Shown piece after piece: positions 5,096-11,823 of a stretch of DNA of 21,542 nt (positions within the stretch are counted from its first letter, which is position 1; each line of letters begins with the position of its first letter). The notes beneath the pieces were generated by a model that was not told the DNA's origin, did no database searches, and worked only from the letters and a program-made list of their open reading frames with translations. The DNA is from a virus. Where the stretch lies: IMG/VR virus record IMGVR_UViG_3300020202_000220, positions 1 through 21,542 of that record; one strand, 5' to 3'. A program made the translations under genes and the position numbers.

Positions 5096-5197
5096 GGATG
5101 GCCTGCCTGACGCTTCCAAAGAAACTTGCGAAGCTCCCGGTGCTTGGAAAGTTTTGGCCCTGAATGTTGGGAAGCGCCTCCGGCGGATACACTTTCA

Positions 5198-5893
5198 ATG
5201 GCGATGGAGTTCATCCAACTCACACCCGAAGACCTGATCGGCCCATTGAACGACGTTGAGGCCAAGAATGCGCCCAAGGTGCTTTTCGCCGCCGGCCGGG
5301 TGGACATGTTCCGTGGCGCGCCGCGCGTGTCCATCGTAGGTTCACGCAAGGCATCAGCGGATGGGCTGCGGCGGGCTCGTCGCCTCAGCGGCCTATTGGC
5401 GGCTCGTGGCGTGGTCGTGGTGAGCGGGCTGGCCGAGGGTATCGATACCGCCGCCCACACAGCAGCGCTCGAAGCTGGGGGCAACACGGTCGCCGTGCTG
5501 GGCACGCCGCTGGACCAGGTGTATCCCAGGAGCAACGCCGCGCTTCAGGAGCGATTGATGCACGAACAGCTCGTCATCTCGCAGTTTCCTGTCGGGCGTC
5601 CGGTGCAGAAAGGCAATTTTCCAACGCGCAACCGAACAATGGCGCTGATCTCCGATGCCACCGTTATCGTCGAAGCCAGCGATTCAAGCGGGTCGCTGTC
5701 GCAGGGGTGGGAGGCGCTGAGACTGGGACGACCCCTCTTCATCGCCAACTCCGTTGTGGAGAATCCGCAGCTGTCCTGGCCGGAGAAGATGCTTGGGTAC
5801 GGGGCGCTTGTGCTGTCGGACGAAACACTCGAAGAGCTGTTAGCGCTCTTGCCAGAGCAGAGCACTGAATCGAATGGTGCCATCCTCTTCTAG
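5198..5893 (+). CDS. dprA: DprA/Smf-family (SLOG) protein, short form
   Basis: A 231-residue Rossmann-like protein of the DprA/Smf branch of the SLOG superfamily. Motifs in order from the chosen ATG at 5198: VSIVGSRKASADG (44-56), VVVSGLAEGIDTAAH (73-87), NTVAVLGTPLDQVYP (96-110), NFPTRNRTMALISDATVIVE (140-159) and SDSSGSLSQGWEALRLGRPL (161-180). Housekeeping DprA is longer, with an N-terminal SAM-like domain and often a C-terminal winged helix; here both are short or missing. It overlaps a phosphoribosyltransferase gene by 20 bases, so the two are coupled. That points to a nucleotide-based conflict cassette rather than competence, in which DprA loads RecA on single-stranded DNA. I recall DprA-PRTase pairs being listed among defence-associated systems but could not check. 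No clear ribosome site; a second ATG follows two codons later. Confidence 0.85.
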   Translation: MAMEFIQLTPEDLIGPLNDVEAKNAPKVLFAAGRVDMFRGAPRVSIVGSRKASADGLRRARRLSGLLAARGVVVVSGLAEGIDTAAHTAALEAGGNTVAVLGTPLDQVYPRSNAALQERLMHEQLVISQFPVGRPVQKGNFPTRNRTMALISDATVIVEASDSSGSLSQGWEALRLGRPLFIANSVVENPQLSWPEKMLGYGALVLSDETLEELLALLPEQSTESNGAILF

Positions 5894-6380
5894 GATCGGC
5901 TTCACGTCGTTCCTGCAATATTCCCCGCATGGCGAGCAGCCGACATCCAGGTCATCGAAGGACCTGATTCGGGCGATCAAGAATGACCACCCTTACGGCG
6001 ATAAGCCGGCGATCCCATATAGCGTGAAACGCCTTGCCGAAGAGCTGGTCAAGTATCCTGTTTTGCAGGAGTGCTTTGCAGTCACAAAGTCGGCAACCGC
6101 AGCACCCGGGCAGCGGCCGAGCCCGGATGAGCATTACGACTCACTGGCCGTGATGCCAAAGCTGCTGCCGTCTGGCGCCAAGATCGTGATCGTCGATGAC
6201 GTGGTAACTCGTGGTGCCACTTTTCTGGCGTGCTATTTCCGTCTCAAGCAAGCGCATCCCGATATCCAGGTCGTTTGCTTTGCGCTCGTCCGGACCATGC
6301 GACAAGAAATCGATTCGATGCTGGCGCCGATCGCCGGAGAAATTACCTGCCTGCATGGATATCCCAATCGAACCCCATAG
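5874..6380 (+). CDS. Phosphoribosyltransferase-family protein (ComF-like)
   Basis: A 168-residue protein. IVIVDDVVTRGATF (104-117) is the PRPP-binding signature of type I phosphoribosyltransferases: a hydrophobic strand, two Asp, then the TRGAT phosphate loop. The N-terminus has FLQYSPHGEQ and 'SSKDLIRAIKND', the opening I associate with DprA-linked PRTases. The usual pyrophosphate-loop region is not obvious between 45 and 95, so the active site may be reduced. The start overlaps the end of the DprA-like gene by 20 bases in another frame, the sign of a two-gene functional unit. It may make or sense a nucleotide ligand that the SLOG protein handles; this is inference. The next gene is convergent, 195 bases downstream, with no clear terminator between. 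Confidence 0.75.
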   Translation: MVPSSSRIGFTSFLQYSPHGEQPTSRSSKDLIRAIKNDHPYGDKPAIPYSVKRLAEELVKYPVLQECFAVTKSATAAPGQRPSPDEHYDSLAVMPKLLPSGAKIVIVDDVVTRGATFLACYFRLKQAHPDIQVVCFALVRTMRQEIDSMLAPIAGEITCLHGYPNRTP

Positions 6381-9704: not shown

Positions 9705-10940
9705 TCAATTGAGGATGCCGACGCCAAACGTGTCCTTCAGAGCATCCGCCGCCTCCTGGAAGGCTCTGGCGGCAGCAGACTGTTCGCGGGCGGCGTCCTT
9801 CAGCGAGGCGGCCGCTTCAGCGTTTTCCTTTGCCGCCTGGGCGGCACCGCTGAGGAATCGCGATTCGATGGTCGGGGCAATGCGATCGACGCCACTGCCC
9901 TGATTGATGGACGTGGCAAGCTCCAATTCATTGCGCTCGCGTCGGCGCAGTTTTGACAGAAGGTTGGACGCCTGCGCGCGTTGCACGTCTGTGGCGTCAG
10001 CGTCATTCAGAATCCCTTCGAGCGCCCGCTTCTGCCCGATGTACTTTTCCTCGACCTCAAGTTGGGCCAGACGCACAGCGGCGGCTTCACTGCCGCCACG
10101 GGCTGCCTCCTCAAACTCCGCCTTTTGTGCCTGACGCAGTTCGCGCGACAACTCGATCTGCCGCTGGCTGCGTTCTTCTGCCTCCTTGGCCATCTCCATC
10201 CGCTGCCTTTCTTGTGGCAGCAGGGCGCGTGAAAGAAGGTCTCCGCCGAACTCTCGCAAGGACTCCATCGCACGGCCGCCCGCCCTGGAAAAGAAGTTGT
10301 TTGCCAGCCAGCTTTTCTCCTTTTCCATCTGGTCTAGTGGACCGCGCTGTTTCTTCAGCAGGTCCCATTGCGACTTTTTCCACTCATCGAACAGCCTTCC
10401 AGATAGCCTGCCCTCAGTTACGGCCTTGAGCATGTCGGCTTCACGTTCGAGCAGTGCCTTTTCCTTCTCTGCGAACTCCTGCCGCATGCGCTCCAATTCA
10501 GACATTCCGGATTTATCGCGCCGGGCCGCCTTGATTTCTTCCCGTATTGATGGAGTCATGTCCTTTGAGACTCGCTTCATCTCCATGTCTCGCAGAGCGT
10601 TCTCGCGCCTCTCCACCGCCTCCATGGGTGACGCAATCATCTTCCCGAGGCCACCCAGAACTGGGGTGCTTTTTAACATGTCGATCGTTACCGCGCGCCA
10701 CTCCTTCGTTTTGTCGCCAATGGTGCCGATGGCCTCGCTGATTCTGGTGAGGCTACGTTCAAGGATTGCAAACGCGCCCAGAAAGCCGGCGCCACTAACT
10801 AGCTTGCCGAGGTCATCCATGCCCCTGATCATCGAGGTGTCACGAAGAGCCCTGAGGCGGTCGCTAAAGCCGCTGAGTTCCTTGCTCGCTTGGGCCGCCC
10901 CCTTTACCCCGAGAACAATGTCGAGTTTACGCTCTGGCAC
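9705..10940 (-). CDS. Tail tape measure protein
   Basis: A 411-residue protein that is nearly all helix: Glu/Lys/Arg/Ala-rich coiled-coil stretches (MRQEFAEKEKALLEREADML, MEMAKEAEERSQRQIELSRE, LASLKDAAREQSAAARAF-type) around a moderately hydrophobic segment near 45-60. It directly follows the tail assembly chaperone with its frameshift extension, the position of the tape measure gene in siphoviruses. It is short; at about 1.5 angstrom per residue a tail near 60 nm would be expected, assuming the whole chain spans the tube. The start is GTG at 10940 with AGGAG seven bases upstream, overlapping the end of the extension ORF by 14 bases. Its N-terminus is repeated in the gene at 8627-8986. Confidence 0.75.
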   Translation of the reverse strand: MPERKLDIVLGVKGAAQASKELSGFSDRLRALRDTSMIRGMDDLGKLVSGAGFLGAFAILERSLTRISEAIGTIGDKTKEWRAVTIDMLKSTPVLGGLGKMIASPMEAVERRENALRDMEMKRVSKDMTPSIREEIKAARRDKSGMSELERMRQEFAEKEKALLEREADMLKAVTEGRLSGRLFDEWKKSQWDLLKKQRGPLDQMEKEKSWLANNFFSRAGGRAMESLREFGGDLLSRALLPQERQRMEMAKEAEERSQRQIELSRELRQAQKAEFEEAARGGSEAAAVRLAQLEVEEKYIGQKRALEGILNDADATDVQRAQASNLLSKLRRRERNELELATSINQGSGVDRIAPTIESRFLSGAAQAAKENAEAAASLKDAAREQSAAARAFQEAADALKDTFGVGILN

Positions 10941-11304
10941 TTATGCTCCTGTCTTCGCGTACGACGGCGTCTTCTCGTTTGCACATTCGGTAAATGTCCA
11001 GGAACTGGCGCGTCTGGTCGAACACGCCGCCGGCCATCGGCCAGACCCCGTTGTCGGCAAACTCAACAAGCCGCAGAGCCTGCCGCACGTCGGCGGGTAT
11101 TTCCCTTTGCGGGCACTGCGTGATGCGCGCAATGCCAGTGTGTCGGCAGTCCGCGCATCCCGCGCCGTCGCAGTGTTCGCAGTTGATCCCTTCGAGCCTC
11201 AGTCCGGATTCCGGCGTTGGCGGCCTGTCGCATTTGCCGCCAGCGCAGTGACGGCAGAGCCGGCCGTGCGCGATCAGGTAGGCGAGCCGGATGCGCCTAC
11301 GGTA
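10927..11304 (-). CDS. Tail chaperone frameshift extension (gpT-like, Cys-rich)
   Basis: A 125-residue ORF without any ATG, GTG or TTG start, opened only by a -1 frameshift at the CCCTTTT of the preceding gene. It begins YRRRIRLAYLIAHGRLCRHC and has eight clustered cysteines (extension residues 17, 20, 25, 42, 45, 50, 53, 64) suited to two zinc-binding sites. It ends with ALRLVEFADNGVWPMAGGVF and 'DQTRQFLDIYRMCKRED', matching the 'W-P-x-x-G-G-x-x-D-Q' helical region I associate with T-type tail chaperone extensions. The stop (10929-10927) lies past the GTG of the tape measure gene. The fusion would be 239 residues, made in minor amount beside the 123-residue short form, as lambda gpGT is to gpG. 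Confidence 0.85.
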   Translation of the reverse strand, partial: YRRRIRLAYLIAHGRLCRHCAGGKCDRPPTPESGLRLEGINCEHCDGAGCADCRHTGIARITQCPQREIPADVRQALRLVEFADNGVWPMAGGVFDQTRQFLDIYRMCKREDAVVREDRSISARA

Positions 11305-11645
11305 AAAGGGCCGTTAGCCGCCACGTAGTAGACGATCGCTCGCTGCAGCTCGCCCAGCTCCTGCACGGTCAGGCACCCAAGAGAGTCCGCGCCAGCGTAT
11401 GCTCCAGCTTCGGGCGGCATGTTTCGCCAGCCTGTAACAGCGGTCGCCAGCGCCGCGCGCATGCGCTGCGTGGCGGCGGCGGTGTCATTCATTTTGATGG
11501 CTTCGCGGAACTCGGTTTCGATGTCGTCAGCCTCCGCCTCGGTAATCCCCCGGCAGAGAAACGCCGGACGCTGTGCCTCATCGATATCGCTGTCGATGGC
11601 CAGGCTCACGGCCTGGGTTTTGTCCTTCCGAAAAAGTAGCGGCAT
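11274..11645 (-). CDS. Tail assembly chaperone (gpG-like)
   Basis: A 123-residue acidic helical protein starting MPLLFRKDKTQAVSLAIDSD at an ATG with GAGGAG four to five bases upstream. It lies between the tail tube gene and the tape measure gene, the lambda G position. Codons 113-114 (CCT TTT) sit on the slip site CCCTTTT; non-slipped ribosomes add nine residues and stop at TGA 11276-11274, slipped ones continue into the Cys-rich extension. gpG/gpGT bind the tape measure protein and bring it to the tail tube subunits. The fold itself is not recognised from sequence; the call rests on position, size and the frameshift. Confidence 0.8.
   Translation of the reverse strand: MPLLFRKDKTQAVSLAIDSDIDEAQRPAFLCRGITEAEADDIETEFREAIKMNDTAAATQRMRAALATAVTGWRNMPPEAGAYAGADSLGCLTVQELGELQRAIVYYVAANGPFTVGASGSPT
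11278..11310 (-). promoter_or_regulatory. -1 programmed frameshift site with downstream stem-loop
   Basis: On the minus strand the heptamer C-CCT-TTT (11310-11304) is in the correct X-XXY-YYZ register for the upstream gene. Three bases later GTAGGCG (11300-11294) pairs perfectly with CGCCTAC (11284-11278) across a 9-base loop. The zero-frame stop follows directly (11276-11274), and the -1 frame stays open for 125 codons. Confidence 0.85.
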
Positions 11646-11646
11646 G

Positions 11647-11823
11647 TCACTCCTCTTGTGTGGGTTCAATGACAACGACCTGCGTGGCCTTGTAGGCGGC
11701 GATCGCCGTCTTGCAGTGCGCGTCCAGCCGGTCGGGGTCCAGGTTTCCAGCCTCGATGGAATCCAGCACGCTCTTGCCGAACGCCACGAGGTCGCGGTGA
11801 ATCTGTTCCTCTGCGGGGGTCAT
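11647..11823 (-). CDS. Small phage protein between tail tube and chaperone
   Basis: A 58-residue acidic helical protein starting MTPAEEQIHRDLVAFGKSVL. The ATG at 11823 has AAGGGA upstream. It starts 8 bases after the tail tube stop and ends 1 base before the chaperone ATG, so it is tightly packed in the operon. No function is recognised. Confidence 0.6.
   Translation of the reverse strand: MTPAEEQIHRDLVAFGKSVLDSIEAGNLDPDRLDAHCKTAIAAYKATQVVVIEPTQEE

Follow-up and report, generated by a model that had tools for sequence, protein, structure and literature searches.

A putative lambda-type -1 frameshift gene pair with a Cys-rich extension among the tail genes of a virus record

Genomic setting and anatomy of the gene pair

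The window, that is, the whole stretch of DNA analyzed here, is a 21.5-kb virus record. Its minus strand carries genes for a portal, an S49 head protease, a head protein, a Mu gpT-like major head protein, a neck protein, a tail terminator and a tail tube, followed by an overlapping G/T gene pair and a 411-aa gene (Table 1). The pair lies between a tail tube identified by Pfam and a tape measure identified by position, which is the placement of a lambda-type pair. The presumed tape measure gene starts at a GTG (10940) behind CAGGAGCATAA and shares 14 nt with the end of the extension; no family match in Pfam or PHROGs was obtained for it or for the 58-aa ORF. A tape measure of 411 aa would predict a short tail. 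On the plus strand, a Cro/C1-type HTH protein (232-663, PF13443, E = 2.1e-8) suggests a temperate phage. A DprA-like protein (5126-5893; PF02481, E = 5.5e-55; PADLOC ShosA, E = 2.1e-72) and an overlapping gene for a phosphoribosyltransferase-domain protein (5874-6380; PADLOC ShosT, E = 4.5e-18), also on the plus strand, make up a phage-borne ShosTA-like toxin-antitoxin/defence pair.

Table 1. Coordinates of the frameshift gene pair, its elements and its neighbors in the window
Feature	Coordinates	Strand	Basis
Tail tube gene, 303 aa	11832..12743	-	Pfam Phage_tube_2 PF18906, E = 5.2e-14; 19 phage records with distant tubes
Small ORF, 58 aa, between tube and zero-frame ORF	11647..11823	-	Sequence; small ORF at this place in several relatives too
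Zero-frame 'G' ORF, 123 aa, presumed tail assembly chaperone	11274..11645	-	ORF and Shine-Dalgarno; role by position only
Slippery heptamer C_CCT_TTT	11304..11310	-	X_XXY_YYZ register checked in sequence
7-bp hairpin, stimulator role doubtful	11278..11300	-	Sequence; starts 3 nt past heptamer
Zero-frame stop TGA	11274..11276	-	9 codons past heptamer
-1 frame extension ('T' domain), 128 codons stop to stop	10927..11313	-	Homology to phage -1 extensions
Cys cluster of extension: family Cys C20, C23, C28, C67 (Pro)	11113..11256	-	CxxC...C...CP columns in alignment A1
Window-specific Cys4 insertion CEHCDGAGCADC (C45, C48, C53, C56), DnaJ-like CxxCxGxGCxxC spelling	11146..11181	-	Sequence and alignments
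Presumed tape measure gene, 411 aa	9705..10940	-	Position and Shine-Dalgarno

The zero-frame ORF starts at an ATG (11645) with AAGAGGAGTGAC, a Shine-Dalgarno sequence, just ahead. Its product had no match in Pfam or PHROGs and was not found by an HMM built from the zero-frame proteins of relatives, so the name 'chaperone' rests on position; the tail chaperone identity given in the original prediction fits the location, with no sequence family to match it. The rest of the predicted anatomy was largely reproduced. The zero-frame stop follows the slip site, and the -1 frame stays open between 11313 and 10930, closed by a TAA (10929-10927) and bounded upstream by another TAA (11316-11314) one codon ahead of the slip site. 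About 124 residues would be gained after the slip, giving the 239-residue fusion originally calculated. G+C by codon position, read in the -1 frame, was 0.67/0.53/0.75 and resembled that of neighboring genes, which was counted in favor, as the -1 frame behaves like a real gene. Comparable -1 overlaps extending at least 100 codons numbered 32 per 110 ORFs of at least 75 aa in this G+C-rich DNA, so openness by itself is weak evidence.

Slip site and downstream hairpin

The heptamer C-CCT-TTT was verified on the minus strand in the predicted X-XXY-YYZ register, and it is the sole heptamer of this type in the 37-nt overlap. Across the other minus-strand genes, 5 of 2905 codons carried an in-register X_XXY_YYZ heptamer, which was never CCCTTTT; this gives a chance expectation of about 0.02 (about 2%) per 12-codon overlap. 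A 7-bp hairpin within 9 nt was present at 1.7% of positions. Neither the heptamer alone nor the hairpin alone is decisive; homology is.

C_CC.U_UU.U belongs to the efficient group of slip motifs measured in E. coli reporters, and bacterial -1 sites can have Shine-Dalgarno-like stimulators (PMC4066793). The CCCTTTT of the window likely works as a slip site. GAGG located 11 nt upstream of the heptamer, the position expected of such stimulators, was conserved in one clade of relatives, and no such element was found about 11 nt upstream in the window. The downstream stem-loop was confirmed as a structure, with a perfect stem (11300-11294 paired with 11284-11278) and a 9-nt loop. The stimulatory role ascribed to it did not hold up in the folding test: the spacer is 3 nt, the hairpin was absent from the minimum free energy (MFE) structure predicted for the 60 nt downstream, and this stretch did not exceed shuffled versions of itself in stability (z = 0.03). 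The hairpin could be incidental.

Slippage by RNA polymerase along the T run, in place of ribosome slippage, could also yield a fusion, as homopolymer runs can cause transcriptional slippage (reviewed in PMC5009743). Such slippage does not require the exact X_XXY_YYZ register, yet all relatives keep it (see below). The T run of CCCTTTT is only four bases, which is too short for efficient transcriptional slippage, and we regard this as the least probable of the explanations weighed here.

Homology of the -1 extension

Nineteen phage records contain related tail tubes (26-32% identity). In 10 of them the sequence behind the tube was inspected, and all 10 had a -1 overlap with a slippery heptamer. 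Five carry DUF1799-type extensions (S-LBS1, S-CBS1, vB_ThpS-P1, RcWaterboi and RcapMu; PF08809 matched in 3/3 tested), and five carry Cys-rich extensions (Alteromonas phage P24, JP1, RcDurkin, RHph_I4 and RcZahn). The corresponding place in RcapMu is annotated 'potential -1 frameshift'. The DUF1799 (PF08809) T extensions of RcapMu, S-LBS1, S-CBS1 and vB_ThpS-P1 share gene position, -1 slip and related tail tubes with the window, but differ from the Cys-rich family in having no Cys cluster. A link between the two types was tried and rejected, as profile comparison with the Cys-rich family was insignificant (probability 0.3%), and neither a DUF1799 profile match nor its motif (W..N.......F....QWR....GLDY) was found in the window extension.

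An HMM of the five Cys-rich phage extensions, window excluded, identified the window -1 frame among 385 ORFs (E = 1.9e-6; runner-up 0.37), a result that is partly circular in that the members, though taken from fixed positions, were picked with the Cys-rich frame of the window in mind. Further relatives were gathered from three sources. A bacterial-genome scan using the head protein gave 78 loci; many have a -1 overlap behind the tube, mostly with AAAAAAC or GGGAAAC, and two (L017, L018) hold family members. Profile searches of about 1150 genomes gave additional members, using a profile that included the window. An IMG/VR scan with a nine-sequence alignment, window excluded, gave ten more. The IMG/VR peptide patterns were KKL[IT]xGFR, which covers the heptamer, and RLYECP, which does not; AAAAAAC was present in 10/10 of these relatives, heptamer context being unasked beyond the KKL start or ECP motif. 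The alignment of distant extensions was too variable for use in scanning.

A 19-member HMM, again excluding the window, matched the -1 frame at E = 5.7e-11 among the 385 window ORFs (runner-up 0.098); it scored 36.9 bits, and 5000 shuffles reached 13.2 at most. Applied to 18,939 ORFs of other loci, it matched family members exclusively. All invariant columns of alignment A1 (CxxC, C, G, CP, G, G, Q) are present in the window; these columns and a significant profile score, which together define the Cys-rich T-extension family, were thus both found. By sequence comparison, the window -1 frame encodes a homologue of extensions that follow slippery heptamers in another 29 phages or prophages.

An in-register heptamer occupied the corresponding place in all 29 tabulated relatives (AAAAAAC in 25, AAAAAAG in two, AAAAAAA and GGGAAAC in one each), often right at the zero-frame stop. 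Conservation of CCCTTTT, which had been proposed as a check, was not borne out: none of the 29 carries it. The architecture is conserved in relatives, whereas the heptamer itself differs in the window. Close relatives were sought in viral contigs by extension, zero-frame protein and tail tube, and by a degenerate DNA motif scan, and none was found. Counting against a frameshift are a heptamer unlike that of any relative, the lack of a close relative to show CCCTTTT conserved, the missing GAGG element, the unconvincing hairpin, and a zero-frame protein and a tape measure that match no family.

Separate production of the extension, by termination-reinitiation or from a weak internal start, was weighed against these data. 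The original description of the -1 frame as start-less held for ATG, GTG and TTG, the earliest of which is at codon 76 (GTG 11088), past all Cys but one; it overlooked a CTG at 11277, which sits exactly at the zero-frame stop (CTGA, 11277-11274). Overlapping stop/start pairs are a common means of gene coupling. CTG is, however, a rare start, no Shine-Dalgarno was found for it here, and the predicted N-terminal helix (residues 2-15) is for the most part encoded ahead of it (it is codon 13); starting at GTG 11088 would omit the Cys region. The relatives also have slippery heptamers, and those from IMG/VR have no standard start codon over at least the first 47 residues in five of ten and over 66-98 codons in four of ten. 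We consider separate initiation very unlikely.

An assembly or sequencing error at CCCTTTT, with one base wrongly added or lost, would mean that the true gene is one fused ORF or that there are two normal genes; this is slightly less credible still. The slip site is a short homopolymer pair in a metagenomic virus record, for which a close relative to compare with is lacking; however, a like -1 overlap occurs in complete phage genomes and in many independent contigs, and the stop codons of both frames closely bracket the slip site, as they do in RcZahn. Given the homology and the slippery heptamers of relatives, -1 frameshifting is far likelier than either.

The Cys-rich extension as a protein

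The extension contains nine Cys, where eight had been counted. On sequence grounds it belongs to a Cys-rich T-domain family (CxxC...C...CP...G...Q) that has no database model; no covering model was found in Pfam, PHROGs or NCBIfam. The Cys richness, put forward as a notable variation, is therefore a family trait and not a single oddity, and what is specific here is the extra Cys4 block. RcZahn, RcDurkin, RHph_I4, JP1, P24, Desulfobacterota-type prophages and the IMG/VR contigs have the same layout (CxxC...C...CP...GxLPxxGGxxDQ) as the window, with every A1 invariant column present and the extension reached by a -1 slip; they differ in their heptamers and in having no CEHCDGAGCADC block, which is absent from the other 19 aligned extensions and from the IMG/VR extensions. 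The block was taken as an insertion because the first CxxC (C20, C23) lies at the family's distance from the RRIRL/KKLR start, an assignment that is not certain, as MAFFT placement varied between alignments. Its spelling (CEHCDGAG-CADC) is like that of DnaJ-type CxxCxGxG zinc repeats, a resemblance only, as no Pfam match to the DnaJ zinc domain was found in the window. Homology to DnaJ or to retroviral knuckles was rejected, since PDB sequence matches were at chance level only.

Single-sequence structure prediction of the extension was uninformative (pLDDT 45). An AlphaFold2 model from 11 sequences (72 pLDDT) gave a confident N-terminal helix and two confident C-terminal helices (block means mostly 85-95), with low confidence at residues 32-60, where the extra Cys4 block lies. 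A fold search with this model in BFVD and PDB returned no match at E <= 0.001.

Three alphaproteobacterial loci (L097, L098 and L099) matched the profile without the CxxC...CP cluster, while retaining LPDAGGxxDQ together with the AAAAAAC site; the cluster is thus not found throughout and can be lost or gained. Other Cys-rich -1 extensions lie behind AAAAAAC or GGGAAAC in L023, L025 and L029 (CPGEEGC..., GCQPHCQPEC..., SCPGC...); they were unmatched by the family profile and are possibly separate Cys-rich T types. Among deposited phage genomes, an internal start is annotated in L013 (3127-3384), L012 (3034-3399) and L009 (6534-6779), with the N-terminus lost and sometimes the Cys cluster too. 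Some Rhodobacter phage records already label such ORFs 'tail assembly chaperone'.

Proposed mechanism

The lambda gpG/gpGT pair is made by -1 programmed frameshifting (Levin 1993; Xu 2004, 2013, 2014, reviewed in PMC5009743). The window shares with it the place between tail tube and tape measure, a start-less overlapping -1 frame and an X_XXY_YYZ heptamer, and would share a short chaperone and a long fusion. It differs in its heptamer (CCCTTTT versus GGGAAAG in lambda) and its Cys-rich extension, and neither part matches a Pfam tail-chaperone family. The lambda-type assignment originally made is supported by position, the start-less open frame, the heptamer and, decisively, homology. The pair is a functional-looking lambda-type frameshift pair; the mechanism is known, and the extension family and heptamer are variants.

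It is highly probable that a -1 frameshift produces two proteins from one start, a 123-aa short form and a 239-aa fusion with a Cys-rich T domain. From the sequence anatomy, a -1 frame coding for a family protein and an overlap with slippery heptamer shared by relatives, we infer an actual slip of some frequency and two products in some ratio. Most ribosomes would make the zero-frame protein, while a minority would slip back one base at C_CCU_UUU, as the tRNAs for Pro and Phe re-pair with CCC and UUU, to complete the fusion.

From analogy with lambda (PMC5009743), we infer binding to tape measure and tube: the short protein would coat the tape measure protein, and the rare long copies would use their extension to bind the tail tube protein and start its polymerization around the tape measure. 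Both forms would leave afterwards, as in lambda. The T domain would consist of the N-terminal helix, the CxxC...C...CP cluster and the two C-terminal helices. Judged from sequence, the Cys cluster very likely binds zinc, which would hold the domain together. A bolder reading, in which the tube-recruiting arm is a metal-dependent module, zinc or a Cys redox switch gates the start of tail polymerization by the long form, and a second metal site has been added here, is improbable; if true, metal or redox state would control tail assembly. A text search found no paper on zinc or Cys in such extensions, subscription journals being mostly outside its reach.

Implications

The family spreads over phages of Rhizobium, Agrobacterium, Rhodobacter and Alteromonas and over contigs of Desulfobacterota-type and other environmental bacteria. 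Deposited genomes usually omit the extension or assign it a false internal start, and a family model would correct many annotations. The CCCTTTT site points to a heptamer that can vary with the architecture unchanged, and the Cys cluster provides a testable prediction on how the T domain is constructed.
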